DNA of 48,321 nt from a virus: the IMG/VR virus record IMGVR_UViG_3300049001_000032, positions 1-48,321 of that record; one strand, written 5' to 3'. Positions 3,666-40,709 of the stretch are shown one piece after another; position 1 is the first letter of the stretch; every line of letters starts with the position of its first letter. The translations under genes were made by a program, and so were the position numbers. Under the pieces are notes generated by a model that was not told where the DNA came from, did no database searches, and was given only the letters and a program-made list of their open reading frames with translations.

Positions 3666-3729
3666 GTGATTATGTGAGTTATGACACTTGAAGAAGAGAT
3701 CAGCGAGCAGGTTGAGTACCTCCGAATGC

Positions 3730-3801
3730 ATAGAAGTAGATGCGACTACACATAAGAAGGTGCGACTAGCACAGAAGTGAGTGCGACTGGTAAAGAAGTC
3801 G
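3730..3801 (+). repeat. Left-end array of ~20-bp motif
   Basis: TGCGACT occurs at 3741, 3761 and 3782, each preceded by an AGAAG block (3732, 3755, 3773), with a fourth AGAAG at 3794. The unit resembles ACAGAAGTGAGTGCGACT with a 20-21 base period. These are inverted relative to the copies at the other end of the element. Confidence 0.75.
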
Positions 3802-3819
3802 TTATTGACGGTGTTGCAC

Positions 3820-4035
3820 ATGGACGAATTCGACCTCGACAGCCTGACCCTTGAAGAGCACCAAGCCATCCGTAAGCTTGAGCTATTAGCCAAACGATGG
3901 CCCAAATCGCTCTGGCTCTATTCGGCCAGTGGCACGCTCTACGTCATGCGCTGCGGCGAGGACGATCCGCGCTCAACCGAACAGAAGTACGCCGTCATTA
4001 GTATCAACATCCCGAACGATGGCGGCGATTGGTAG
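3820..4035 (+). CDS. Passenger gene of the insertion, 71 aa
   Basis: 71 residues starting MDEFDLDSLTLEEHQAI, with KRWPKSLWLYSASGTLYVM in the centre and INIPNDGGDW at the end. It is the only gene within the inserted element and lies between the two motif arrays. The ATG at 3820 is more natural than the GTG at 3781, which lies inside the left array, but no clear ribosome binding site is seen. It is not recognised as a transposase; it is too small and has no catalytic triad. It looks like a small phage-type protein of unknown function. Confidence 0.55.
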   Translation: MDEFDLDSLTLEEHQAIRKLELLAKRWPKSLWLYSASGTLYVMRCGEDDPRSTEQKYAVISINIPNDGGDW

Positions 4036-4041
4036 AAAAGC

Positions 4042-4160
4042 AGTCGCGCCTTCTTCTGTGAAAACCGGAACCAGTCGCGTTCACTGTTGTGAGCAGTCGC
4101 ACTCTCTTATGTGTGAAAAGAGCTAAAACGGATGCTTTAGTCGCAATCACTTCTGTGTAT
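4042..4160 (+). repeat. Right-end array of ~20-bp motif, inverted
   Basis: AGTCGC begins at 4042, 4073, 4095 and 4139, each followed by a CTTCTGTG-like block; the best copy, at 4139, reads AGTCGCAATCACTTCTGTGT. Spacings are 31, 22 and 44 bases. These are the reverse complement of the left-end motif. Confidence 0.75.
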
Positions 4161-4338
4161 TAGGAGTACCTGCACGAACTTGATGCCGAGATAGCTAAAG
4201 AGACCGACTGGTACATTCTTGGCGATCTCCAGAAGAACTATGACGCAGCCTATGAGCGCCTTGAGAGGCTGGAGGAGGAGATGCGAGATGCCCAAGACGA
4301 GAAGAGTCGAATTTAAGTTCATTGAATTAATGGAAACG

Positions 4339-4380
4339 AAAAGGCCGTCGCGCGAGCGAATAATCGCGCGACGGCCTTTT
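4339..4380 (+). terminator. Strong intrinsic terminator (bidirectional)
   Basis: A 17-bp perfect stem, AAAAGGCCGTCGCGCGA with its complement ending GGCCTTTT, and an 8-base loop. The A run before and T run after make it work on either strand. It closes the left gene cluster after the split gene. Confidence 0.92.
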
Positions 4381-4385
4381 CAATG

Positions 4386-5086: not shown

Positions 5087-5506
5087 ATGAAGAATAGGGG
5101 TCTCGCAGGCGGCTTTAATTTCGACCAACCGAAGAAATCACAAGCCTTAATCCCCACCGAAAGCTCAGTTCTCGCCAGCATACAAGATCATTGCCGCTGG
5201 AACCGTATCTATTTCCAGCGCACCAACAGCGGCAAGGTTCAAGTCGGAAAACACTGGATAAAGCTTTGCGACGAGGGTACGCCCGATCTGTTGATCTGCT
5301 ACCGGGGGCTATTTCTCGGCTGCGAAACCAAGCGGCTCAATGAGACGGCGCGTGAGACGCAAATCACCGAACACGTGAAGATCACAAAAGCAGGTGGATT
5401 CGTCATCGTCGCACATTCAAGGGACGAATTTTGTGCGGGCCTCAAGGAGATTGATAATCTCCTCAATAATCTAATCTGGATGTTGTTTGGAATCGTAAAC
5501 AGGTGA
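5087..5506 (+). CDS. VRR-NUC domain nuclease
   Basis: 139 residues fitting the VRR-NUC family of the PD-(D/E)xK nuclease fold. GTPDLL (residues 64-69) gives the acidic residue D67. E80 and K82 follow in FLGCETKR, then Q92...H96 and AGGFVIV complete the core. Such stand-alone phage enzymes are thought to cut branched or replicating DNA. The start is uncertain: ATG 5087 has no good ribosome binding site, but all catalytic residues lie well after it. The stop TGA touches a very strong terminator. The family call is firm; the cellular role is inferred. Confidence 0.78.
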   Translation: MKNRGLAGGFNFDQPKKSQALIPTESSVLASIQDHCRWNRIYFQRTNSGKVQVGKHWIKLCDEGTPDLLICYRGLFLGCETKRLNETARETQITEHVKITKAGGFVIVAHSRDEFCAGLKEIDNLLNNLIWMLFGIVNR

Positions 5507-5558
5507 AGGCCGCGTCCGCTTCTTCGACTACTAATCGAAGAAGCGGACGCGGCCTTTT
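5506..5558 (+). terminator. Very strong intrinsic terminator
   Basis: A 22-bp perfect GC-rich stem (5506-5527 with 5535-5556), a 7-base loop and a following T run. It begins in the stop codon of the nuclease gene. Confidence 0.95.
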
Positions 5559-14174: not shown

Positions 14175-17100
14175 ATGCTCGACCCATTTGACCAGGATAA
14201 AAAAAAGAAAGCGCCGTCACCACAGGATGATGAAGGCGTCAGAGACAAAGTTTATCGCCTTGGTCGCAGTCTGATTTCTCAAGACGGCAAGCGTGAAATC
14301 CCCGATGATGTCATAGACGAATACATGAAAGTGACCGGATTAGAGTCCGGTCACAAGCAAACCTACGGTGACGGCTCACTCGTCACCGGACGGCGCAATA
14401 AAAATACCAGGGAGCGTGCCGTCGGCTTCTCTCAAGCACTGCCCTCCACCATCAGGCAATATAAACACCCGGACGGGCGCACGTATGATCCCGCGAATGA
14501 AGAAGACAATATCCTCGGCGGCCTGCGCTACCTCAATGATGGGGTGAAGGCATCGAAAGGCGATGCGGATGGCGCGCGCATCTGGTATTTCGGTGGGCCT
14601 GGGCCTCATTCGCATTACATGCAGACGGGCCAGGTCCCGAAAGGCAGTGACTCAAACGGAACGACGTTTGGCGACTACCTGAAATCAACCGGCGGAGGAA
14701 GTAGAAGACGCATCGGGCAGGCGACCGCCGACACATTTTCTGAAGATCTCTCGCAGAACCGCTATTTTAATCTCGTCGCGGGCGAAGAAGACAATCAAAG
14801 CAATCGTTATTTTGATCTCATCTCAAAAGATTCTGCGCTGACACCGGCCAGTCCGAGAGGGAGGCGGGGTCGCGCGGAGATTCATCGACAGAGCTATATG
14901 CACAAAAGGAACGAGGATGGCAGCGTTTCTTCATACGACGAGGCCGGACAACTCGTTGGAACTGGCAAAGCTGGCCGTGAGCGGCCATATGGCGTCGTTC
15001 CAGCACCTGAGTCAGATACTGAAATACCCGATGTTTCGGGAAATCGTTACATGCAGGCCGCGCAAATGGCCGAAAACGCGGTGGATACGGGCGGTAGTGC
15101 CGCACCTGACGCTACTCCAGTAAATGACGAGCCTAGTAGTCAGCCCTCCACACCACCGGAAGCGAGCCTAGAGGGGCAGCAAAGCGCGGGAAACGATATT
15201 CAGGGGACTCTTCCCACTAATCTTCCCACTAATACATTACGCGTTCCCGTTAAAGCGGGAATGTCCCAGATTGACATTCTGAGGGCCGGTCTCCAGATGA
15301 AGGCACGTGCGCGAGGTCTCGACGATAAAGGGGCGGAAAGTTATGCCAACGAGATCGCGGGAAAGATCGTTGCCAGTGGCGGCGACCCGTCGCTCCTCGG
15401 CGCGGATCAGAAGAGCAAGGTGGGCGATGCCGCACTCAATAATATTTACACTCACGGCTACGCCGATCTGTCATTCAACGATCCAGCTTACGATCAAGCC
15501 CTCGAAGAAAAGTTAAAATTGAGTGCTGCTCCTGCTGCACAGGCTAATTCAGTCATCAAAGGTTTAATTGAGCCGGGCAATATTGACCTCATGCATCGCC
15601 CCGTCGTGAAAAATGCGGACGGCTCAATCAGCACTGTTCGCTCCGTCTCCGTTAACATGGACGGTCGGGAAATATTGATCCCAACTGTCAGCGACGACGG
15701 AAAAATCCTCTCAAATCAAGATGCCATCCAGCAGTACATAAGGACAGGCAAACACCTCGGCATTTTCGATAATCCAGACGATGCGACTGCTTACGCTCAA
15801 CAGTTACACCAAGAGCAGGAGAAGCTGTACGCTCCAACTTCTTCATTACAACCTCAACTCAATTCCGAAGGTCAGCCATTCGACGAATTTACTTCACCAA
15901 CCGCTGACGAGCGCGCAGCCATCGAGCGCGGCCAGCAGCTTCCTAACGCGATTGATATTGTCAGTAATGAGGCTGTAGCTCTCAACCAGAAGCGCCGCGC
16001 CAGACAAGCCGAGCACATCAAGCGCGAGCAGGCCATACGGCGACAAGTAGAGCGCGCACGCGCACAGGCAAATACGAGGACAGCCGATCCAGATGATCCA
16101 GATGAGCTTGTGCCCGGCTTAAACATCGCAGAGTCAGGACGTGAGGCGAATTTGAAGTTGAGGGATGCGACGGCGGCCAGCATCTCTGATTTTGTGCGAA
16201 ACATAGTTGGGAGAGTGGACGCTGCGCGTGAAAGAGTGCGCCAGCAAGTCCTGAACGAACAGCATGAGGCTTACAACTCGCCGGGCCCCTTCACGCCTAT
16301 GTCCGCTGCGGATATTGATGAAGAAGTTAATCGCAGAGTCAGGGCGGGCCAGATTCCACCACCGCAGATGAGTCTCGCCGATCTCAAGCATCAGGACGAT
16401 GAAAACTTGAGAGCGTCTTCTGTCTCTGCGCTTGCGCCTGGCGAATTCGTTGAAGCGCAAAGAAGAGCAGATGATGAGTGGCGATATGAGGAATCTGTCA
16501 GAGGAATACTGAGAGACCAGGCCAGGTTAGCAAGCGAACATCCGAGAGCAAGGGAAAAGACACTTGATAATCTTCTGAATCGCCATCCTGAATTGAGGAA
16601 ATTACCGCCGGAGGAATTGGCTTCTAAAGTCAACGACATTTCCGACCTGGAAAGCGATCCGTGGTTTATACGGAACGTGAGACAGGGCGCATGGTCGGGC
16701 GCAGCGAGTATCGTAAAGGACATCAGCAATGTTATTGATATTTTTAATGGCGCAGACACTCTCACGAATGTCAGAGACACGCTGCGCCAGAAAGCTAAAG
16801 GTGAAGCGTCAACAGTTCAGCTTTCGAGAGAGCTTCATCCTGACGAAGAAGGCACCGCGTCCGAACTAGGACGTGGTTTAGGAAATCTAGCGTTTGCAGA
16901 AGGCCCTAAGCTCTATCTCACAGCCGGTTTGGAGGGAGCGCAACTCCCGGTGCTCGGCGTAATCTCGGCTGAAGATCGTGGCCCGGCTGAAGTGCTCAAG
17001 GGTGCAGTGATGGGTTACCTCTATCACAAGGGAATGGGGATCACCCACAGGCTGGGGAAAATCGGCAACGCACTTATCTGGACGGCCATACCGGCAGTTG

Positions 17101-20100
17101 AATCGAAGGTTGAGAACCCGAACCAGTCATGGGGAAAAGCAATCGCTGGAGCGCTTCCTATGGGCGCATTGTCTGCGCTTGGTGGAGGCAAAGAAGAACA
17201 AGCAGAAGTAATTGACTCGGAAGGGCGCAAGCGTGACGCTACGGTTCGAGACCTGGATGGCATCAATAATGGAGACCTTCAGGTTGTCCAACCGAAGACT
17301 GACACTCTCACTCCCGAAACAGTTCCTGACGACAACAAGCTGAAGCTGGATGTAGAGCCTGGCAATCGCATTATCGAAAACGGGAAACCGACCGGCAAGA
17401 TGTTCGATGCCGAAGGCACGATCGTGCCTTTCAAGGAAACGACCACAGAGCCGGAGACCGTGGTCGCACCCTCCGATAAGCAGATAACTCCTGCACAAAA
17501 AGGGCAAGCAAGCAATAAGAAGGAAGCTAAACCAGTTGAATCTAAAAAAGCCGACATGATGTCTGACTCCGAACTGATAGCGGAAGGTGAAGCGATTCGG
17601 ACAAATATCGAGCGTGAACTAAATGAGTCAGTTACTTTAGTCAGCGGTGAAGTCCACGAGAAAGGGATTACTTATTTCTATAAAACTGGATCAGGGAAAA
17701 AGATTGAGCGCATTGTTTTGGATGAAACGCGGGGCAACGAGCCTTCCAGGGGTGAAGAAAATATTTCACCCCTCCCAGAAAACCAGAAAGCCGAATCTGA
17801 TGAGAAAGCGGTTGATCCGCAGATACAGCGCGATATAAACCAAGAGAACGTAATTGCCACTCAATCTGGGCAAGAAGAGCCGAGCGAAGAGACGGCGGGT
17901 AAGGAGATGGTCAAGCCGCTTCGTAAGCTCGGCTATACGGATCAGGGCTACATCGTGCACGCGATGGCGAAGAACGTCGCGGAGAAGATTCTCGCTGACG
18001 GCATCAGGGAAGATGAATTCCATCGTATTAGCGAGCTTGTCGGGAAACGAGAGGGTATCAGTCCTCTTCGCCAGGTAAATGAGTATGCAGAGGCTGGCGA
18101 GCGCGCAATTTTACGTGGTGAGCGTGTGCCAGACATGTCAGAAGAGCCGTTAGATAAGAAACAGATAGACGCACGCACCGCAGAAGATTTATTGCAGCTG
18201 CCTGAGACGCAGAAAAGGTTAGAAAATACAACGGATGATATTTCGGGTCTGGTCGAGCGCTTTCACGCGAAGACTAAAAACTATCAACCTAACGTTTTCT
18301 ATCATGCGACCGGCGGGTTAGGTGAAGCGGGCGTTGGGCGCGGTCTGTATGTAGGCCGAGACCGTGAGGCCCTGAATAATTTCTATAATATGGACGGAGG
18401 CAAAGTCGAAGCTTACGAAGGTAAACCGCGCTTTCTCGACCTCACCGATTTTGATGCGCTCGAAAACTTTGAGCGCGAAGCAGAACAGAAATTCGGTAAA
18501 CTAGCGGACAACGATCAAGTAAGAAAGCTTGCGCTTGAGCGTGGTTTTGATGGCATTCGTTATTACGACCCGGAGACTACGGGCGAAGAGTTTGTCGTTT
18601 ATAACCAGAAGTCCCTGAAAAAGGCCACATCAAAACCACCTGGACAACTGAGCGGTTTTGCTGATGAATCTATCTTACGAAACGCTCTTGACGTAAACGG
18701 TGAACAGCCTGCGCTATTCAAGGCCATCAATAGTATCCCTGAGATTAAAAAAGGAATCCTTAAAGAGCTTGGGAGCGGCGCGCGAGTAGTTGGACAACAT
18801 AACTCCGGCACGGGAATGCCTCATGCCGGAGCGTGGGAATTTCGGGCTGCAAATGGCGACTCAATTTTTGTAGACCAAGCCTTTGCTGGTGAGAAGCTGA
18901 GCGATACAGGAGCGAAGTTTATCGGTGAAAACGAAGGCAAGCCCTACGTCGAAGGCGTGTATGTCAGTAGAGAGACTCCTTCCCCTGCAACAAAAGGACT
19001 GCCATCAGAGATCAAAAATCAGAATGGTTCAGCGAGACTGGAGGGATTGCGCTATGTGAAATCACTCAAGAGCGGACACATCAGGGCTTATGCTGAGAAA
19101 TATCTCAACTCCCTCCTCGACGGTAGCACTGCTCCGAGCGATAATGCTCTAGCATTCAAAACTGCTAAGGATGTCCGTTCAAATCTCGACAAAATTGTCT
19201 CGGAGCAAAAAGCGAAAGATGAACACATACGAATTATTGATGCAAACGCATTGGGAGCTGGAATTTCATCCGATAGCAATAGAAATGCGCCGGGCGAGCT
19301 ACGGGAAAATGACGGGTCTCGGAACAAGTCCACTGCCGCTCCTGAACGAACTAGCGAAACTAGCGAAAACAAAGCCAGAGAGCCTGAAGAAAAGCCAACG
19401 CTCGCCGAGCGCATCGCCAGGCGACTCCAGGAAGAGCACAAGCAGTCGGAATCTGAAAAGCAGGCAGCGCAAAGTGATCGCGCTCCCGAAGTCAAAGGAC
19501 AGCTCGATCAAATCCAAGAGCGCAAGAAAGCGGTCTTCGATAAACTCAACAAATTAGCAGACGAGCGCTCGCGTAAACTCTCCAGCATTCCTCTTCCCTC
19601 ATTGGAGGAGATTGAAACTGTTGCGGAACTTACCCAACTCTACATTGACGAAGGTCTCACAAAATTCAAGGAAGCTGCTCACCGCTTCGTCGAAGATTTC
19701 GGCGAGAAAGCGCATCTCTTTGGCCGTGCCTTTGAAATAGCCTGGGAAGAGTTAAAGGCAGACGGCGCAGCCATTGACGATGCAGGCAAGTGGGGCAATG
19801 CACCGTTTGAAAATGAAAAACCGGTTGAGGCTAAACCGGTCGCCCAAGTTAGCGAAATACCAGAAAGCCAGAAAACTGGCGAGAGCTACAAAGCCAAGAC
19901 TGAAGACGGCACCACAGTTCAAGTTCACCCGGCGGTACTCGACCGTTCACAAATCTTAACTTCATTCGATGAAGGCTATCCAGAGGTGTGGCAGCCGCGC
20001 GACCGCTCACGCGCAGCGAGCCGTGAACAGATCGGGCGCATGGCCGCCAAGCTCGACCCAGAGTTCCTCGACGACTCGCCGAAAGCCGGTGATGGCCGTC

Positions 20101-23100
20101 CCCTAGTTGTGCCCGTCGAGGTGGAGGGCGAAACCAAGTATGCGGTAATCAGCGGCAACGGTCGCACGGCTGCGATAGATGAAGCTTATGATGCTGCCAA
20201 TGAGAGCGCAGAGAAATATCGTGAGTTCGTCAAGGGTAAAGACGCTGATGCAGCGTCTACCGGGAAACCCGTCTACGTCGGGATCATCAGTGATGCTAAG
20301 AGTCTCGACCTTCCGAAATTCGCGCAGGAAGCAAATAGCTCAAGTGTTGCGCGCATGGGCGCGGCAGAACAGGCCAAGACAGATTCCGAGAATATCACTC
20401 CTCAGCTCATGGCGAAGTTCTACCCGACGGATGACGGCCAGATCAATACGGCTGCCAATCGTGAATTTACGCGCGACTTTATAGAGCACGTTGCGGGCGC
20501 GAGCGAGCGCGGAGAACTGCTAACTTTAGATGGCCGTCTCTCCATCGAAGGAATAAAGCGCGTGCGCAACGCTGTCTTTGCGAAAGCTTATGGCTCAACC
20601 CCGGAAGGCTTAACCGCGCTCGCCAAACTCGCCGAAGACCCGGAGAATAACGTCCGCTCGATCACGATGGCGCTACTGCACAAGGCCGGGCGCTTTGCGG
20701 AATTGAGAGAGGCTATCAAAGACGGCTCACGCTATGACCTGGACATCACCAACGATCTTGTCTTAGCCATGCGTAAGCTATCAGCGCTGCGTGAAGACGG
20801 CAAAACTGTAGATGAATATCTTAAGCAGATGGGACTATTCGGCTCAGAGTTTGATGATTTTCAGAAGCGTGTCCTGACCGTTTTAGATGAGAACAAACGC
20901 AGCACGCGCGCCATCAATGAAATTTTAGATAATTATCTACGCGGGGCGAACGAGGCGGGCGATCCTCGTCAGGGCGGATTTTTTACTAGCACAAAACCGG
21001 AAAAGAGCGCATTATTTGAGGCAAGCGTAAAGGAGGCCACACTTGGCACAGGCGACCAAACAGGACTCTTCGACGAAGGCGAAAAAACAGGAGGCGCAGG
21101 TGAACGCCTTCCGCTACCTGATCAAGCGGTCGAAGAAGAAAGACAGCAGGACCTTCCAGCAGATGGCACCGAAAACGGGTCAACCCGTGAAATAGCTCCG
21201 GCAGCCGCGCAATCCACCAATGCGGCAAAGGCCGTTACTCATCTTCTCTCAAAACTAGGGATTCTCAACGAAGCGAATGCACCCGGCGAATTCTACCGGA
21301 CAATTAAGAACCCGCCATATCTTGATCTAGTCTTAGAGCGTCACGGCGACCGTCTCTATGTGACGCACTGGATTAAAGAGGATGGCTATTCGAGGATTGA
21401 TTCGGAGATGGCCTGGGATGTCACCCCTGATGGAGAGCTTCGCCTCGCCGAGACAGCCGTGCGCGGTCCCCAGGGTGAAGTGCGTGGATTAGACAAGAGG
21501 TTTGCTACCATGTTCGCCAAGAACCTGCTCGACCAGGGGTTCGCTCGTGGCGAAGTCATAAGAGGAGATTTAAGTGCTGAACATCTCGGCGGAAATCTGG
21601 AACCAGATAGCAAGGATCGGCGCTCAGAGGGGGATACTCTCGGCGTTCGGCCAGAAGTTCCTGGGACTCAACCAGGACAAGCTGACGGTAGCCTATCAAG
21701 CGGAAGCCGACCGGTTGGAGAAGATGGGGACGGACCCGGACGTGGTGACGGCCTACCTGGAGATAGCGCCGCATCTCGCGGACAGGCGAGCGATCAGCTT
21801 CTGGCTGAAGAATCACCAGGGGATGAGGAGAACTTTCCCGGAAGTGAACTCGATTCAGCAGGCGGTGATGATCGAGTCACAAGCGTATCATCTGACCACA
21901 CGCCAGCAGAGCGAGTTAGAGAATCTGCTACAAGCCCTGAACAACTAGCCCAGAAGCGCGAAGCGCAAACCCACGCCGAAAAGATCAAGATCAAGGTCGG
22001 CGACCAAGAGAATATCCGCGCCACACTTCCCTTTCTTCTACCGGAACAACAGTCTGATGTCGTCTTCGCCGAATCGCGTCTTATTAAAGAGCCTGATGGC
22101 TACGGCGTGATGTTTACGAACGGCACCGGCACCGGTAAGACTTTTACAGGTCTGGGCCTCGTCAAAAGATTCGAGCGCCAGGGGAAAGAGAACATCCTGA
22201 TTGCCGCGCCTACCGACAAGATCATCAAGGACTGGATTCGCTCGGCTAAGAATCTCAATCTCGAAATCAACCAACTCGACGATACCAGCAGCAACGGCGA
22301 GAGCGGCATCGTTATCACTTCATACGCCAATCTAGCGGCGAATGATTCTCTGGCGGAGAGGGCGTGGGATTTAGTTGTGGCCGATGAATCTCATTACCTT
22401 GGGAGCAACGCCGAAGGGCGCGACACGGGCGCGCTCGACGCTTTGCGCGCGATTACCTTGCACCCGGACGGAAAATACCGACGCGCGAAGATGATGCTCA
22501 GAGAGCTGTACGACGCGGAAGAAAAAGCCTGGAGAGATAAAGCGGCGTTTGAAGCTTCTGATGACAAGGAAAGAGCGAAAGCAGCAGATGAGAAAGCGCG
22601 CGCTCTTCGCGCTGAGATAGATGAAAAGAGTAAGCCGATTTACCAGGAAGTGGAAAATGCTTCACCTGATGATCGCACGCGCGTCGCTTTCCTGTCGGCC
22701 ACTCCATTCGCTTACCGCAAGTCGGTTAAGTATGCGCAGGGCTATCTCTTCGACTGGAACGAGGGGCATGACCTCAACCGCTCGCGTGGCTATAACGAGC
22801 CAAGCCCGGAAGAAGCTTTCTTCGTCCAGCATTTCGGCTACCGCATGCGCTACAACAAGCTGACGGAGCCGGATGCACAGGTCAATACCGACTTGATGGA
22901 GCAGCAGTTCAATAAGCACCTCAAAGATAAAGGTGTGCTCTCAGGCCGGAGTCTGGAAGTGCCTGTTGACTACAGCCGCAAGTTTGTCCTGGTTAATGAT
23001 GCTGTGGGTCGCAAGATTGACGACGGCCTGGATTTCCTCCTCAACAATGAAGAGGGCAAGTATCGCCCGCTCTATGACCAGCTCAAGGAGAATTTCAAAT

Positions 23101-26100
23101 ATCACAACCGGATGTTCCTTCTGGAAGCTCTTAAAGCGCGTCATGCGGTTGATCTCGTGCGCAAGCAGTTGGAGATGGGTCGAAAAGTAGTCGTCTTCCA
23201 TGATTTCAATAAGGGTGGAGGCTTTCACCCGTTCGAGTTCAGGCGAACAGGCGAAAATGTCACGCAGTACCGCGACGGCCAGTCTGAGACGGTCAACATC
23301 AACGATCTGATCGATGATTTCAATCGAGAGCGGCCAGATTTGGTGCAGATGGATTTCTCTAATCTGAAATCTCCGATTGAGACATTCCGGGAAGCTTTCG
23401 GAGACAAGGCGCTGTTTTTTAACGGGACGATTCCTAAAAGGGAGCGCGCCGCTAACGCCGATCTATTCAATGCAGACGGTTCCGGCCATGATCTGCTTGT
23501 CGTCCAGTCGGACGCCGGGCGTGAAGGCATCAGCCTTCACGATACGACAGGCAAGCATCAACGTGTGCTCTTAAACCTCGGCATGCCCGTCAAGCCCACC
23601 GCCTCAACCCAGATAGAGGGTCGGACCTACCGGCTGGGAAACATGACGGATTCGCCCTTCCTCTATTTCAACACGGGCACAAACTTCGAGCGCTGGACAT
23701 TCGCCTCGAAGATCGCCGAACGCGCTTCCACGGCAGAGAATCTTGCGCTCGGTGAAGATGCGCGCGCGCTCAAGCAATCTTTCATAGATTCATTCGAGGA
23801 TGCGGACCCGAACTACAGGCCGAGTGTGGACGAGGGTAAAGGCGGCAAAGAGAGAGACCGCGCGAACTGGCAGGAGATTTCAGCTTTCGAGAGAGCGAAA
23901 ACTTACTACTTCGGCCAGCTCAAGAAAACCAGCCGCAACAAGGCAAAAGAAGGGATTGATTACTTTGCCACGCCGGAACCGTTGGGTCTGAAGATGGTCG
24001 AGTGGGCTGGCATTCGTCCCAACGATAAAGTATTGGAGCCTTCAGCCGGTCACGGTGCAATCGCTCGCTACTTCCCGGAACACTCGGATCGCGTCATGAT
24101 CGAGCCGAGCTTTGAACTGGGGACGCGCGCTGCGCTTCACTCCGGCGCTCGTCTCGTCTCGGATAATTTCGAGAACCATCACATCGTCAATAAGTATGAC
24201 GCGATTGTGATGAACCCGCCGTTTGGTGTGGGCGGCAAAACCGCCATCGAACATTTGGAGAAAGCCACCCTGCACCTGAGAGACGGCGGGCGCATAGTCG
24301 CGCTTCTTCCTGAAGGCGCAATGGCTGAGAAACGGCTCGAAAGATTCCTCGACGAGAATCCTGTAGCAAAACAAGTATACAAGTTAGCCGACATCAAGTT
24401 GCCGCGCGTCACTTTTGAGCGTGCAGGTACATCCGTCGCAAGCCACGTGATCGTGCTTGAGAAGCATACGGACCCGGAGAGAGCCAACTCAATCTACGAG
24501 CGCAATCGCGATTTCACGGATGCCTCCACGATTAACGATTTCTTCGACCGCATAGAAAACCTCGACATGCCGGAGCGTGTGCCCGTTCCTGAGACGGAAG
24601 AAGCGCGCGCACCCGAAAGCTCGATGTTCAAAGCTGAAGAGTTCATGCACACGCGCGACCGTGGCGCGAAGATGTACGTGGCTAATCCGGTCGAGCATCT
24701 GGGCGACCAGTTTTCTGAGGCGATCCGATTAGCCAAAAAGCATGGAGGATGGTACAGCAAGTTTAAGCAATCTGGCGCGATTCCAGGATTCCTATTTAAG
24801 TCCGACCAGGCGCGTAATGATTTCATGAGCGAGGCCGAGACCAGATTCCGAAAAGAGGAGCCGGAAAAGGCTACCGGCACATACGGCAAACCCTTCGACG
24901 AAAGCACAACGGAGATGCACACGGAGATGCACGCCGGAGTTCCCTTCCTGCGTTCGCTGTTTAGTCCCCGCGAGCGCGTTGATTCGGTCAGCACGCCTGA
25001 CGCCTTGAAGAGCGATTTTGAAGAGGTCGAGCGACGCTGGAGAGAAGCAAAGGGAGCTACAAGCCCAAGCATCTTTCAGAAGGCGCGCGAAGGATTAGCG
25101 GGCATCTATCGCTCGTTCAAGCGGAGCGATATACACATTAATCCGAATCAGAGTAAAGAGATGGCAGCCATCTCGGATGTGTTGCGCCAATACAAGTCAA
25201 CACCGGCGTGGGCAAAGGCCGTGGCGTTCGACAAGATTTTAGAGGTGACGGAAAACCTGGGTAAGAAACGGCTCGACATCTTTACGCGCATGGTCGCGCT
25301 GCCTGACATCATCCGGGACATCGAAGAAGGAAAATATACCGATCCCGATACAAACGAAATGCGCGAGATGCCGTTCGGCTACCAGTCGAAGGAAGAAGTC
25401 GAGCAGGATCTGGCTAAATTTCAAAAACTGGTGGACGCCAATCCCGCAATCGGTGATGCGCTTAAGAGGCGCTCTCAGTTTGTCCGTGGTCTCACCGAAG
25501 AGCTTGTGCGGCACGAACTTTTAGATCCAAAAGTTCTCGAAGACGGGCGCTACTATCACCGCCAGGTCATGAAGTACCTGAATGGTGACGATCAGTATTT
25601 GGGTACAGGCTCACGCGACGTGCGCGTGCATCGCAAAGGTTTTCAGAAGGCACGCGCCGGTGGAGGCGATTTCAACACCGCATACCAGGAAGCGGAATAT
25701 GAGTGGACATCGCAGGCGCTTTCTTTGATCGCACGCAAAGAAACTCTCGACCGGCTGCAAGAACTATCGGACATCAAGGATTCCCTGGTGCGTCGCGCCA
25801 AGGCTTTTAATCTAAAAGCCATCGTCGAGCATGGAGGCGAGGCGGCAGAGGAAGCACTGGCGAATTTCTCTCGCGAGATCGGCAAGGCTACGCTCTCTCT
25901 CTACGAAAAAGCTGAAGAGGGCGAGCTGAAACCCGTCGGCGGTCGCTTCGACGATCTTCTCGAATCACTAGAGCAGGGTATCGAAGAGAACAATGCTCTA
26001 AATGCTGACCGCGACGCGAAAGAGAAAGAGCCATTTAGATTCCAGCATGAGGACTGGTTCAAATTCTTAAGCCACTTAATTGAGAACAAGCTTGAAGGGA

Positions 26101-28412
26101 GCGCAGAAGCTTCCCGCATCTTCCGTGCTATCGCCGGGCGCGAGGCTTTTATCAAAGAGACCTTGGGGCAGCGCTATCGAAGCTTTGAAGATTTAGTTCC
26201 CGCGACGCACAGCGTCTGGCAGCCTGAAAAGGGAAACCATTTCTTCATGTCGCCAACAGTTGAAGAGAGCGCGCTTGATGAGGTGCTCGCCGGTGATCGG
26301 GAACTTCAATCTGAAGACGTGCGACAGATGTTGACTGTCGGCGGCAAGCGAGAGCAATGGGTGATCCCGTCAGAACTGGCGCGCACGCTCGACGAATTCA
26401 ACCCGCCGCGCGAGGAGAACCCGTTTGCGCGCTTGATGGAAGGCGCGCAGACTACGTGGAAGCAGTGGACGCTTCTGAACCCCTTAAGGGTGCTGCGCTA
26501 CAACGTCAATAATCTTTCGGGTGACGTGGACATCGCCCTCGCTTACGATCCGCGCATTATGAAGGGTTACGTGAAGGCGGCGCGCGATATGTGGGCCTAC
26601 CAGATCAAGAACAAAGGAAGCGCGAAACTTAAGAGTGAGCTTCAGGATGCCATCAAGCGCGGCGTGGTTGATTCCGGCCTCTCCATCTCCGAAATTCCCG
26701 ACATCAATAAAGAAGGCGCATTCCAGCTTTTGACCGAGCGCCGCGCCGGAGTCCTGGCGCGAGGTGTGCGCTCATACTGGAACGGCGTCAAGAATTTTAC
26801 CAACTGGCGAGAAAACATTTTGCGCCTGGCGGCCTACCGCTATTTCCAGGGAGAGATCGCGAAGGGCAAAAAGGTGTACGGAGCCTCGACGCGCTCACAG
26901 GTGGATGCGATTCGTGACCCGCAGGATCGGGCGGCGAAACTCGCTCGCGAGTTGATCGGCGATTACGGCAACGTGTCGGTTGCCGGTCGCTGGATTCGCA
27001 GGCACATGATTCCCTTCTACTCGTGGATTGAGATCAATGCTCCTCGCTACGCGCGCATGCTCCGAAATCTCCCGGATGAGGGGCGCAAGGGGGCCGCCGC
27101 GCGGGGAGCTGCTGTTCTTGCCGGACGCACGGCTGTGAATGCTGGCAAGTTTGCACTGAAAGCGCATCTGCTTTACCTGCTCGTGCAGGCTTTCAATTAT
27201 ACTGTCTTCCCCGATGATGAAAAGAAGCTTCGAGGCGAGGGGCGGCGTAATGAATTAATCTTGGGGCGCGACGACCAGGGAGAGATTAGAACGCTGCCCA
27301 TTAAGGGCGCTCTCTCGGATGCTTTGGAATGGTTCAACTTCGACGATTACCCGTCGGATATTCAGGACATCCTTACAGGCAAGGCTGATTTTCTCGACAA
27401 GGCCGCTGAAGCGGTGAAAGCGCCCGTGGAGAAAATTATCAACTCGGCAAACCCATTTGCGAAGACGATCCTTGAGACCACTTTGGGGAGAAGCGCCTAC
27501 CCGCACATCTTTGAAGATGGTAAGAGCTTTAATTTTGCTGCACGTCCTATTCGAGACCGCGCGCAATATGCGGCGAAATCGTTTTCCGTCGAGCCGCTTT
27601 ACAATCTGTACCGGAGAGTGACGGGCAAGCCGCCCTATCCGTCCAGGCCCGCGGGGAAAAATCCAGCGATGAACCTGCTTGATTCCCTGCTGCTCTATAA
27701 GACCGATCCGGGCGAGGCGGCTTACATGCAGATGCGCGGAGTTGTTTCCGATTATGCGAAGGCTCAAGGGAAAGAGACGGCTGGCAGCGATCCAAGCGAA
27801 AAATCAAACGCGGTTTTTTATTTCAAACTGGCGACTCGCTGGGGTGATGATGTGGCCGCTGCCAAGTGGCTTGATGAATATCGTCGCCTGGGTGGAACTG
27901 ATAAAGGCTTGGATCAAAGTGTGAAGGTTGCGCATCCACTTGGACAACTCGCCAAGAAGGATTGGCGCACTTTCATAGATCAACTCCCTGCGAAGGATCG
28001 TCAGACGCTCGATGAGGCGCTTGCGTGGTATTCAAAGAGCTACGGCGAGCTGTCGGACAATGCGAACCTGAAGCCGGATTACCGGTTGAGTCGTGAGGAG
28101 GTCGAGCACAACCGGCGAGTTGATGAGAAAGCAGAAGAGTTTCATAAGATAGTGAACGATGCAGAAGGTTTGACTGACAAGCGCAAGAAATTGCTGCTTG
28201 CGGATATTACGCGCAGACTCACGCGCGCGAAATTGAACCCAGATAAGGAAGAGCGCGATTTGAAGAGCGCACGCGAGCGCTTCGACGATACGGCAAAGGG
28301 GATCGAGGAGGACTTACGGTCGAAGATTAAAGATGCTCAGGCCGACAGCTCGGACGAAGCTAAAGAGAAGGGATTTGTGCTAAAGCCGAGAAGGAAGATT
28401 GTGGAACAATAA
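14175..28412 (+). CDS. Giant polyvalent protein (transglycosylase, ART, ParB-like, helicase, methylase), 4745 aa
   Basis: One continuous 4745-residue reading frame. Residues ~45-165: lysozyme-like transglycosylase (GLES, E57 catalytic candidate). ~468-552: GNIDL...RPVV / IPTVSDDG module typical of phage ejected proteins. ~915: hydrophobic segment. ~1372-1485: ADP-ribosyltransferase-like ([16 protein letters not shown]). ~1915-2160: ddrB-like ParB domain ([10 protein letters not shown] at 1992). ~2600-3170: SF2 helicase of strawberry-notch type (GTGTGKT 2650, DESH 2737, FLSATPF 2839, [10 protein letters not shown] 3146). ~3270-3390: N6-adenine methylase (EPSAGHG 3288, NPPF 3347). ~3520: LPD-like [11 protein letters not shown]. 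~4090-4500: long C-terminal domain with a membrane helix near 4329. This is the polyvalent type thought to enter the cell with the DNA and counter defences. The ATG has no Shine-Dalgarno. Confidence 0.85.
21574..21948 (+). CDS. Candidate overprinted gene inside the giant gene, 124 aa
   Basis: A GTG start preceded at seven bases by GAGGAG opens a 124-codon frame in a different phase from the giant gene. The product ([20 protein letters not shown]..., ending [11 protein letters not shown]) has normal amino-acid variety, amphipathic helices and a tryptophan-containing core. Over the same bases, the giant protein is a disordered Gly/Ser/Asp/Glu-rich linker between the ParB-like and helicase domains. 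This is what is expected if the second frame is the constrained one. It is not recognised as any family. Translation is inferred. Confidence 0.6.
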
Positions 28413-28561
28413 TATAATAACGGCTGATGTGGAATTAAAAAGCTTAGGAAATCGAAGCAATTTTTGCTCTGAACGGGTAAATTGATCGCTTGCTGTCTCG
28501 CTAAGCCCTTTGTTTTCAATTGGCGTGTTTTTAATTCCACATCAGCCGTTATTATATTATT
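28408..28561 (+). repeat. 34-bp perfect inverted repeat with 86-base structured spacer
   Basis: Arms at 28408-28441 and 28528-28561 are exact reverse complements, one side starting within the last codons of the giant gene and the other ending just before the stop of the minus-strand gene. The spacer contains further pairing (GCTTAG/CTAAGC and AGCAA/TTGCT). It probably ends transcription from both sides, but the long spacer is odd for a terminator. A small inserted element or structured RNA are alternatives. Confidence 0.85.
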
Positions 28562-33915: not shown

Positions 33916-36399
33916 ATGGAGCAGACCTCACCAGTAGCAACCGCCGATGCGACCGCCGAAGATGATTCTTCCGCGTCAGCGCCGGAGCGCGCCCGCCCCA
34001 AGCGCCAGTTCAAGCCCTTCAAACAATTCGTCCTCGATCTCATCAAGGAAGTTGACTCGGAAGGCAAGGATGAGCGCAAGCAGCGCGCCGGAGTCATCAC
34101 CACCAACTGGAATTATTACCGTGGGAATCATTTCGGCTTTCTCGGTAAAGATGGTACGTGGAAACAGCTACTGGATACAACGGGACTGCACCGATTCAAC
34201 CAGTTCGGCCAGATCGTTGACGCGCTCGCTAAAGAGTGGGCGGCTGCCGGAATCGAGATCAACGTTGATCCGCGCTCTTCAGACCCGATGAAGGTGGCCG
34301 CAGCGTCCGTGGGTCAGGACATCTCAGAACTCTATATCGAAAAACTTTGGGACGAATGGTTTGAGCAGGCGATGGCGAAGTACGCCATGCTCTCGCGCCG
34401 CTACTGGATTTACACGCGTCACTCCACGGAAGTCGAAGGCTACACAGAGCAGCTACCCATCTCAGAGAAAAAAGATGTTCGCTTTCCCGGCATCTACGTC
34501 TGCGAGCAGGGTATGACGGGGCCGGTCGAAAGACTGGAGAAGGCGACAGGGCCTGAAGGTCAGGCGCTCACGGGCGGCTGCCCGCACTGCGGCGGTCGAG
34601 TCGAGATCATCGGAGGCTTCGACGAGCAACTCCCAGTTCGCACCGGTTACGAAGATGTCAACACGGGCGACCTCACGTCCGAAATAGTTGATCCAGCCGA
34701 AATAGAGATTTCAATCGAGTCTCGCCTTTCGGCAGAAAACTCGCCATGGCTTCGTCGCGTGCGCCGCACAAAGCTCTACAAGATTGAGAATATGCACCCG
34801 GATTACGTCGTCGGCGCTGGCACCGATAAAGCCAACGACTTTGACGACTTTCCCGGCGTCTATGAGCAGGACAGGCTGGCGCGCTCCAGTGGCACAAACG
34901 GCTATCTGAGCGGTGATGATTACCCGTCGGGGACGAAGAGCGTTCTTTACAAGCAATACTGGTTCAAGGAGGAGATGTATCGCTCCTGGGTGAGTCCGTC
35001 AAACTCCCGCGTCGCGGGTGTCGAGATCAAGCAGGGTCAGAAGCTCACTGATATTTTCCCTGACGGGCTGTATGTCGCCATGTGCGACGGCGATCTCCTC
35101 TGTTTCGCCAATGAAGACAAAGATGCTGTCTGGGTGATGGGCGTCTATAAGATTGACCCGACAAGCCCGGACGGCAAGGGCCTCGAAGACTTAGTTGACA
35201 TCCAGCGCATGCAGAACGAGATCGTCTCGCTCATCTTCGATCACCTGATGCGCAATGCTTCTCCACCGACAATCGTTGACGGTCAGCTCATCAACGGCGA
35301 CGATTTTACGGGCGACCCCGGAACAATCTCTTACACAAAACAAGGGTTTATCCGGGACAAGCCGATCAGCAATTTCATTCATCAGCTATTCGGCCCCGAG
35401 CTTGGCGGCGACATCTTCAACTTCTTCACGATGACGAGCGAGGCGCAGAAGAACGTCTCCTCAGTACATGACGTGATGACGGGCGGGGGCGATCCCGGCA
35501 CAGAAACTTTTCGTGGTCTCGCGCTCCTTCGTGAGCAGAGCACGTCAAGCCTCGTCCCGGCGCTGATGATTAAAGCGTGGGTCAAGGAAAGATGGACGGC
35601 CCAGGTACTTGAAATCGTGCGGCAGACGTGGCCGTTACAGCGCTATCTCGATCTGAAGAAAGATTGGGGCGAAACGGCGGTGCGCGCTTTCCAGAAATCG
35701 AATATCAAGCGCGACTTCAAAATCCGTTATACCCCCGGCACTCACATCCCGCGCACGAACCTGGAGGAGCTGCAAAACATCCTCCAGTTCTTGAAGAATG
35801 GCGGGATTGATCCGAACGTCCCTGAAAAGATCAAAGTCTTCATGGCGCGAAGGCTCGGCGTCCAGTATGAGGCAAACACTTTCGAGAAGGATTTGCGCTC
35901 GGCGAAAATCAGGTTTGAGAAGATGCGTAACGGCGTGCGCTTCTATGAGCAGAGAGGCATGCCTCTACTGGTTCTCTCACCCCAGGGAGAGCGCGTGGCT
36001 AATCCACAGCTTGTGGCTGCCGTCTCGGCGCTCGCGCCCGTTAAGGAGCGAACCGACAATCATACCGTTCACATTGATTTTTATATCGAGCAGATTAAGT
36101 CGCTCGAAGAGGATCAATCTGAAGAGAGCCTGTTCTTTGAGGCTGTGATACTGGAGAAGATCGCGGAGCATGACGATGCAATAGTGCATCGCGCGCAGGA
36201 TATGGCCGCTGATTCGGTGGAAGCTCAACAACCGATTGAGCAAGCGCAAAAAGAGGCTGCGGCGGCGCAGGCTGAAGAGGAAACAGTGCGCGATCAGCAG
36301 AAAGCGGAGCACGCCTCATCTCTCAAGCAGGCAGAGGCGCAAGCTGCACAGCCGCCGCTTCAGCCGCCGGTTGTGAGCGCGCCGCAGCTTGGTGCTTAA
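33916..36399 (+). CDS. Portal protein
   Basis: 827 residues, the size of portals in short-tailed phages. After a low-complexity start, RKQRAGVITTNWNYYRGNHFG, FNQFGQIVDALAKEWAAAG and EQAMAKYAMLSRRYW fit the clip/wing part. MQNEIVSLIFDHLMRNASPP and VHDVMTGGGDPGTETFRGLALL fit the stem/crown region. Residues ~220-226 contain a CPHCGG pair, odd for a portal, maybe an inserted zinc loop. The C-terminus is a long Gln/Ala-rich coiled coil. It forms the ring through which DNA enters. The call rests on overall pattern and on position after terminase and before scaffold/capsid. Confidence 0.8.
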   Translation: MEQTSPVATADATAEDDSSASAPERARPKRQFKPFKQFVLDLIKEVDSEGKDERKQRAGVITTNWNYYRGNHFGFLGKDGTWKQLLDTTGLHRFNQFGQIVDALAKEWAAAGIEINVDPRSSDPMKVAAASVGQDISELYIEKLWDEWFEQAMAKYAMLSRRYWIYTRHSTEVEGYTEQLPISEKKDVRFPGIYVCEQGMTGPVERLEKATGPEGQALTGGCPHCGGRVEIIGGFDEQLPVRTGYEDVNTGDLTSEIVDPAEIEISIESRLSAENSPWLRRVRRTKLYKIENMHPDYVVGAGTDKANDFDDFPGVYEQDRLARSSGTNGYLSGDDYPSGTKSVLYKQYWFKEEMYRSWVSPSNSRVAGVEIKQGQKLTDIFPDGLYVAMCDGDLLCFANEDKDAVWVMGVYKIDPTSPDGKGLEDLVDIQRMQNEIVSLIFDHLMRNASPPTIVDGQLINGDDFTGDPGTISYTKQGFIRDKPISNFIHQLFGPELGGDIFNFFTMTSEAQKNVSSVHDVMTGGGDPGTETFRGLALLREQSTSSLVPALMIKAWVKERWTAQVLEIVRQTWPLQRYLDLKKDWGETAVRAFQKSNIKRDFKIRYTPGTHIPRTNLEELQNILQFLKNGGIDPNVPEKIKVFMARRLGVQYEANTFEKDLRSAKIRFEKMRNGVRFYEQRGMPLLVLSPQGERVANPQLVAAVSALAPVKERTDNHTVHIDFYIEQIKSLEEDQSEESLFFEAVILEKIAEHDDAIVHRAQDMAADSVEAQQPIEQAQKEAAAAQAEEETVRDQQKAEHASSLKQAEAQAAQPPLQPPVVSAPQLGA

Positions 36400-36401
36400 T
36401 T

Positions 36402-36427
36402 TAGGTACTTAAAATAGGTACTTAAAA
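36402..36427 (+). repeat. Tandem 13-bp repeat at a convergent gene junction
   Basis: TAGGTACTTAAAA occurs twice in a row between the portal stop and the Acb2-like gene. Together with flanking GCTTA and TAAGC it can also fold into an imperfect stem. It may act as a terminator or mark the edge of the minus-strand cassette. Confidence 0.6.
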
Positions 36428-36441
36428 TAAGCGTTGAGGCT

Positions 36442-39446: not shown

Positions 39447-40709
39447 GTGGATACAACTACCAGCAATATCGGCCCTCAATTAAAGGAGAAAGTAGCCAGC
39501 AAGATTGAGGATGCCGTCGAGAAAGCAACTGAGACGTGGAACCTGATTGAGAAAGGCAAGACGGAATCCACGAATGCTCTGGGCTACCGACTGCCCTCAT
39601 CAGTCGAAGACAACGCTTCGGAGCTGTGGTCTTCGGTTGAAGGCGACGATTTCCCGGAAGGCGATACGGACGTACCCGTCTCAATGAATGTGAAGTACAC
39701 CCGCGTCTATAAGACGGGCACGATCACGGGTGACGTTCGCAATCACGAGAAGGATCCGGACAAGATCGGCTCGATCATTTCCAGTAAGTTCGGTCGCGCC
39801 GTGATGGATTTGAAAAAGTCCATCAACCGGATGCTCTTCGGAGAATCATCCGGAGAACTCGCTCGCATCAGCGCAATCAACACGGGCACGCGAACTATCA
39901 CCTGCGCGACAACCGTCAACCAGTTCGGCGTTCGCAAGGTCAAGAAGCGCCATAAGCTCGAAGTCCGTTCTGCGGGTGGAGCGTTGCGCTCAACAAACAC
40001 GGATTACCTCGTGGTCGAGTCAATTGACCGCGACAACGATAACTTCGTGTACAAAGCCGCTCCGGGTCTGGCTGGGGATGCAGCAATCAACGACCTGCTG
40101 ACGCTCAAAAAGAGTTACGGGAATGCGCTTCACGGACTCGACTATCACCTGGGAAACAGTGGCGTCTACCAGAACGTGACGCGAGGGGCCACGAACCCCG
40201 CGCTCAACGCGATGGTCATTGATGCGCAGACGGAATACCTGTCGGCTTCGATGATTGACAAGCTGATCAACGGGATGACGTTCAAGGCGGGCGAGGAGAA
40301 CTCGGACGACCTGATCATTACCTGGAGTCCGGCGCAGAAGCAGCAGTATTGGAACTTGGGCTATCGCCTGCAACAGATCGCTGGTGGTGCCAAGAAGTTC
40401 GACCTCTCGTTTGAGGGCGCGACGCACCAGGGAATCCCGACCCGCGTGGACGTGGATTGCCCGAACAACTCGCTCTACTGCTGGAGACCGTCGAAGCTGA
40501 AGCGTTACCAGCTTGAACCCATCGGCATGATCGACATCGGATTCGGACTCCTCAGCCCGAAGAACGCTGCCTCAGGCCAGGGCCACGCCGACGCTTACAA
40601 CTTCTACATTGGTGGCAAGTTCGAGATCGGATGCCAGACCCCGCACCTGCTGGGTGGCCGCATCAGCAACCTCAACACCGTGGGTCTGCCCGATGGCCGC
40701 GACGCCTAA
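39447..40709 (+). CDS. Major capsid protein
   Basis: 420 residues with the make-up of a HK97-fold-like capsid protein: a helical N-terminal arm (QLKEKVASKIEDAVEKATETW), a beta/alpha core, VKYTRVYKTGTITGDV, a spine-like segment (DLKKSINRMLFGESSGEL), and an A-domain-like end with VDCPNNSLYCWRPSKLKRYQ. Start GTG, after AAAGGA. It lies right after the scaffold and before a large hairpin. No enzyme motif is present. Position and size support the call strongly; the exact subfamily is not recognised. Confidence 0.82.
   Translation: MDTTTSNIGPQLKEKVASKIEDAVEKATETWNLIEKGKTESTNALGYRLPSSVEDNASELWSSVEGDDFPEGDTDVPVSMNVKYTRVYKTGTITGDVRNHEKDPDKIGSIISSKFGRAVMDLKKSINRMLFGESSGELARISAINTGTRTITCATTVNQFGVRKVKKRHKLEVRSAGGALRSTNTDYLVVESIDRDNDNFVYKAAPGLAGDAAINDLLTLKKSYGNALHGLDYHLGNSGVYQNVTRGATNPALNAMVIDAQTEYLSASMIDKLINGMTFKAGEENSDDLIITWSPAQKQQYWNLGYRLQQIAGGAKKFDLSFEGATHQGIPTRVDVDCPNNSLYCWRPSKLKRYQLEPIGMIDIGFGLLSPKNAASGQGHADAYNFYIGGKFEIGCQTPHLLGGRISNLNTVGLPDGRDA

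Follow-up and report, generated by a model that had tools for sequence, protein, structure and literature searches.

IS21, Mu and Tn7 are established examples of elements with multi-site ends, and in IS21 the terminal inverted repeats (TIRs) are built of multiple direct repeats that are needed for transposition (PMC10122671). Tn7, Tn402/Tn5053 (TniA) and Mu carry several ~20-bp sites at each end, which point the same way within one end and the opposite way in the other, and have TGT...ACA termini, whereas IS21 usually has two repeats per TIR and a terminal CA-3'. Tn7, Mu and Tn402 duplicate 5 bp of the target, and some IS21 members generate 8-bp duplications. Much smaller elements, which encode no recognisable transposase, are known from phages. 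The mycobacteriophage mobile elements MPME1 and MPME2 are ~440 bp long, have inverted ends, carry one small ORF without transposase features and insert into phage genes (PMC3029335, PMC4351075), with a 6-bp addition of unexplained origin at the left end and no direct duplication (PMC3029335). Mobile insertion cassettes (MIC) consist of transposon ends flanking a non-transposase passenger gene and are moved in trans (PMC5444012); TIME, a group of Tn3-derived miniature elements, has the same passenger-gene, in-trans layout (PMC13367494, PMC4133298).

Here, we describe a 442-bp segment of a tailed-phage genome (positions 3722-4163, plus strand), which we read, with a probability of roughly 60%, as a non-autonomous transposon-like cassette that was inserted into a small phage gene and would be moved in trans by a multi-site DDE transposase.

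Genomic context of the element

The window, i.e., the whole stretch of DNA that was analysed, is a 48,321-bp virus record of a tailed phage, with matches to terminase large subunit, portal and major head families. The capsid matched a PHROGs major head family and had no matching record in the collections. Probes made from the interrupted gene, the gene upstream of it, the terminase and the capsid recovered no close kin among GenBank phages or in IMG/VR, collections that possibly omit records very near this phage. The phage GroES is presumably Acidobacteria-like, and the array pattern described below was absent from the one Acidobacteriota plasmid record searched.

A single 4,745-aa ORF occupies positions 14175-28412; read from its translation, it looks like a giant polyvalent protein with helicase-like and methyltransferase-like stretches. 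At the end of this ORF, before the minus-strand ORFs, lies a perfect 34-nt inverted repeat with 86 nt between its arms (28408-28561). No clear direct repeat was seen at its edges; it may act as a terminator in both directions or represent another miniature element. Another inverted repeat, of 25 nt and nearly perfect (96%) with a 1-nt spacer, spans the junction of two ORFs (5506-5556) and may represent a hairpin or an assembly artefact. A perfect 22-nt inverted match connects the giant ORF (25778-25799) with the capsid gene (40416-40437), 14.6 kb apart, and three 13-bp tandem copies of GGTACTTAAAATA extend from the last part of the portal gene to just past it (36391-36429). A perfect 18-nt stem, terminator-like in form, is located just 3' of the interrupted gene (4338-4381).

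A small gene rejoined by removal of the element

The initial annotation proposed that the flanking gene rejoins in frame when positions 3722-4163 are removed, and this was borne out: joining the flanks yields a 61-codon gene (MTLEEEISEQVEYLHELDAEIAKETDWYILGDLQKNYDAAYERLERLEEEMRDAQDEKSRI, then a stop), rich in charged residues and coiled-coil-like. With the 4,745-aa ORF of this phage as the source of codon frequencies, the score of the rejoined gene was +25.4 bits; its two alternative frames gave -27.0 and -24.1, and each half taken separately was positive in the same frame as the whole. The 5' part (3681-3721, plus strand), which includes the left copy of GAGTACCT and whose frame continues in 4172-4316, scored +6.8 bits, while the 3' part (4164-4316, plus strand) scored +19.8 vs -26.1 and -23.2 in the other frames. 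The reading frame of the left half now continues into the element and meets a stop after 24 aa. The right half has a TAG directly upstream and its only in-frame ATG at 4281, near its end, and is therefore unlikely to be expressed now. A search for homologues or an intact version of the interrupted gene, which had been suggested as a check, returned none from the collections searched, as expected for a phage without close relatives in them; thus, the intact gene is reconstructed from this sequence alone.

The element is bounded by edge repeats and by a 29-nt imperfect terminal inverted repeat (CTCC[G/T]AATRCAYAGAAG..., 79% identity). The edge word GAGTACCT occurs as exact copies at 3714-3721 and 4164-4171, as previously noted, and is a candidate target duplication; for random phage stretches, the probability that the 27-28 nt just outside the two terminal motifs share a word of 8 nt or more was 0.009. 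Because the terminal inverted repeat overlaps the edge word, the length of the duplication is ambiguous, with readings of 8, 7 and 5 bp. Exact register of the ends requires either the 7-bp reading (AGTACCT), which leaves CC...GG as the ends, or the 5-bp one (GTACC), which leaves TCC...GGA, and the 8-bp reading offsets the ends by one base, giving the termini CCGAATG/CTAATAC. The right edge ends in TTAG or TAGGA and the left in TTCGG or TCGGA. The reconstructed empty site contains a 17-bp dyad, GCAGGTTGAGTACCTGC.

Inverted arrays of a bipartite motif

Both ends carry copies of a bipartite ~20-bp motif (consensus CAYAKAAG-N4-YGCGACTR), the half-sites of which are about one helical turn apart. 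Allowing up to three mismatches, CACAGAAGNNANTGCGACT matched exactly seven positions in the 48.3-kb window, all inside the element (plus strand, 3729, 3749 and 3770; minus strand, 4042, 4073, 4095 and 4139), compared with 0.56 expected, and none of 100 shuffles reached seven. The left array (3728-3790, plus strand) consists of three direct copies beginning at 3728-3729, 3748-3749 and 3769-3770, with spacings of 20 and 21 bp, and the right array (4040-4158, minus strand) of four 22-nt sites with low coordinates at 4040, 4071, 4093 and 4137, spaced by 31, 22 and 44 bp. The copies are thus direct within each end and inverted between ends, in agreement with the arrangement first reported (three to four copies on the left and four on the right), the fourth left copy at ~3790 being degenerate. 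Most spacings are near multiples of a helical turn. The best matches between the arrays are not nested, with the third left copy pairing best with the fourth right copy and the second left copy with the first and third right copies; therefore, the arrays fit repeated protein-binding sites better than a single RNA stem. On this anatomy, they are best read as candidate binding sites of an end-pairing transposase.

Cargo gene and searches for related elements

In keeping with the original description of a 442-bp element with one small non-transposase gene, the arrays enclose a single cargo gene (3823-4035, plus strand) encoding a protein of the 71-aa class (KRWPKSLWLYSASG...NDGGDW), to which no function was assigned. 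Its coding score was +13.5, compared with -16.7 and -17.7 in the other frames. Homologues were found at 11 loci, namely seven IMG/VR contigs, two bacterial contigs (one from Rhizobium) and two GenBank phages, and the alignment has the core KRWPKSLWLFSxSGxLxVMR...NDGGDW. One of the homologues (L013:4926-5156) has stop codons in the frame tried and may be frameshifted or mis-assembled. The motif was found in none of the nine homologue loci scanned, which suggests that the cargo is an ordinary small phage gene carried by the element. Flanks at eight loci likewise contained no comparable inverted arrays. Since the cargo occurs elsewhere without the arrays, these are not part of its regulation in the loci checked. 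The predicted fold of the cargo (pLDDT 78.6) had no significant structural match.

Relatives of the element ends were sought in IMG/VR, a plasmid collection and ~840 sampled bacterial genomes, a thin sample of 98,000 drawn from two phyla, and none was recovered. Other copies of the motif arrays, a search for which the initial annotation had suggested, were thus not encountered in these collections. The array pattern was absent from 398 genomes belonging to the phylum of Rhizobium sp. Root483D2, from 289 belonging to its class and from 145 belonging to the phylum of the CSMAG_2461 genome; either end, used as a short blastn query, gave no match in the plasmid collection. Looser and stricter patterns run against IMG/VR produced candidates that were rejected: the single-site pattern gave 16 matches, all isolated and with no array around the three inspected; the two-site pattern gave two, both due to chance; and the three-site pattern gave seven, which were tandem or coding-type repeats unrelated to the motif. 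Neither an autonomous partner nor a second copy of the element was found in the collections searched. No transposase or integrase was recognised among the ORFs scanned against PHROGs and Pfam, which comprised part of the ORFs of the window, and the enzyme therefore probably comes from elsewhere.

Comparison with known transposons

Like Tn7, Tn402/Tn5053 and Mu, the element has several ~20-bp sites per end in direct orientation within and inverted orientation between ends, and a 5-bp duplication, one of the in-register readings, would agree with theirs. However, its full edge repeat is 8 bp, its in-register ends are CC or TCC instead of TGT...ACA, and it is only 442 bp long and without transposase genes. 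The sites of the Tn402/Tn5053 group are TniA-type repeats of 19 bp. There is a partial likeness between the motif and the Tn402 repeats of plasmid R751, CAGAAGTGATCTGCACC and CAGAAGACGACTGCACC, with which it shares the half-site CAGAAG-N4 and a similar second half (CTGCAC vs TGCGAC) at a 1-nt offset. This resemblance is short, and the motif profile scored the R751 Tn402 ends no higher than background; from these sequences, Tn402 would appear to be a lead rather than a family to which the element belongs. The multiple direct repeats within its inverted ends also recall IS21, whereas the element has three or four sites per end and no terminal CA, and neither istA nor istB was recognised among the ORFs scanned. 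The view taken in the initial annotation, of a gene-splitting insertion with multi-site ends and no transposase of its own, fitted all tests. Its argument that a duplication of 8 bp sets the element apart from the Tn7, Tn402 and Mu families is less secure, because a 5-bp duplication is possible in register and 8-bp duplications occur in some IS21 members.

In size and habit, MPMEs are the closest known kind, given their ~440-bp length, single small ORF, inverted ends and location in phage genes. However, they encode an unrelated 123-aa protein and have other end sequences without arrays. MIC and TIME ends are recognisable from a known autonomous family; here, in contrast, the recipient is a phage and no parent was found.

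Alternative explanations

The arrays might instead be operator, iteron or origin sites of the phage, with the edge repeat and the gene fragments arising from coincidence or old decay. Direct repeats of 20-22 bp do resemble iterons, the replication initiator gene (1470-2504) sits 1.2 kb upstream of the element, and, like an origin, the motif occurs at a single place. However, 15-bp tandem units inside the initiator gene itself (1995-2153) are a better iteron-like candidate and a possible iteron origin, which makes an origin at the arrays less likely and weakens the objection, foreseen at the outset, that the motif is a fixed phage origin. It would also require several coincidences, namely inverted arrays that flank a gene, an edge repeat and a coding-like rejoined frame, and we consider this explanation unlikely, although it is the strongest of the alternatives. 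Less probable still is a mini-island moved by a tyrosine recombinase, in which GAGTACCT would serve as the core for crossover and each array as a set of arm-type sites within its end. The identical 8-bp core with inward arm arrays fits an attL/attR layout, and the dyad of the reconstructed empty site points in the same direction, but such a dyad is weak evidence because ~4% of phage bases sit in one. Recombinase arm sites are usually about 10 bp and not bipartite 20-bp sites, no integrase was recognised among the ORFs scanned, and the outer sequences form an inverted repeat, like transposon ends.

Movement of the element by the mechanism of MPMEs, as one of their relatives, is improbable in spite of the likeness in size, gene content, ends and insertion habit. 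MPME1 of phage Hope has no repeat arrays at its ends, and comparison of its 123-aa protein with the cargo showed the two to be unrelated (BLASTP E 5.3). Where MPMEs gain 6 bp at one end (PMC3029335), the present element has a direct repeat. Homology to MPMEs was accordingly rejected for both protein and ends, and what is left of this explanation is a shared mechanism. A self-splicing intron, or another RNA element excised from the transcript, would account for the reading frame that is restored upon removal, and a strong fold was predicted for the RNA strand (-185.9 kcal/mol, z -7.8). This fold, however, follows from the arrays being inverted. There was no Rfam match at the gathering cut-off and no intron family among group I/II covariance models at E up to 5, and an exact 8-bp border repeat is unexpected for an intron, leaving an RNA element as the least credible of the alternatives.

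A proposed cassette moved in trans

The reading as a transposon-like cassette draws on the seven motif copies, none of which recurs elsewhere in the phage, on their inverted arrays, on a terminal inverted repeat that reaches the edge repeats, and on a broken gene that, once rejoined, has a single frame with codon usage like that of coding sequence. Against it stand a single copy across all searches, the lack of an intact interrupted gene and of a transposase among the scanned ORFs, and termini with neither the TGT...ACA of Tn7, Tn402 and Mu nor the terminal CA of IS21. The support for this reading is anatomical.

From these features, we infer transposition, the class of the enzyme and capture of the cargo as follows. 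The host, or a co-resident element, would supply in trans a DDE transposase whose protomers each have two DNA-binding domains. This enzyme would bind the bipartite sites (three left and four right, inverted), pair both ends and join them to a staggered cut. The joining would duplicate 8 bp of the target or, for ends in register, 7 or 5 bp. A small phage gene, known from many unrelated phages, would have been captured as cargo between the arrays.

Collectively, the element is a one-off in our searches and probably represents a novel form of the ultra-small mobile phage elements already known. If the reading as a cassette is true, paired-end machinery like that of Tn7, Mu and IS21 could serve an element that has hardly anything besides its ends and one gene, and a searchable prediction follows, namely that other small phage genes are flanked by the same arrays. 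A bolder and rather doubtful proposal is a phage-specialised family of minimal single-gene transposons, in which array-ended cassettes of ~0.4 kb would carry small genes between unrelated phages via a transposase with an undescribed type of end. Apart from illegitimate recombination, homing nucleases and MPMEs, little is available to explain how small genes hop between unrelated phages, and such a family, if it exists, would directly account for the mosaicism of phage genomes at the level of small genes.
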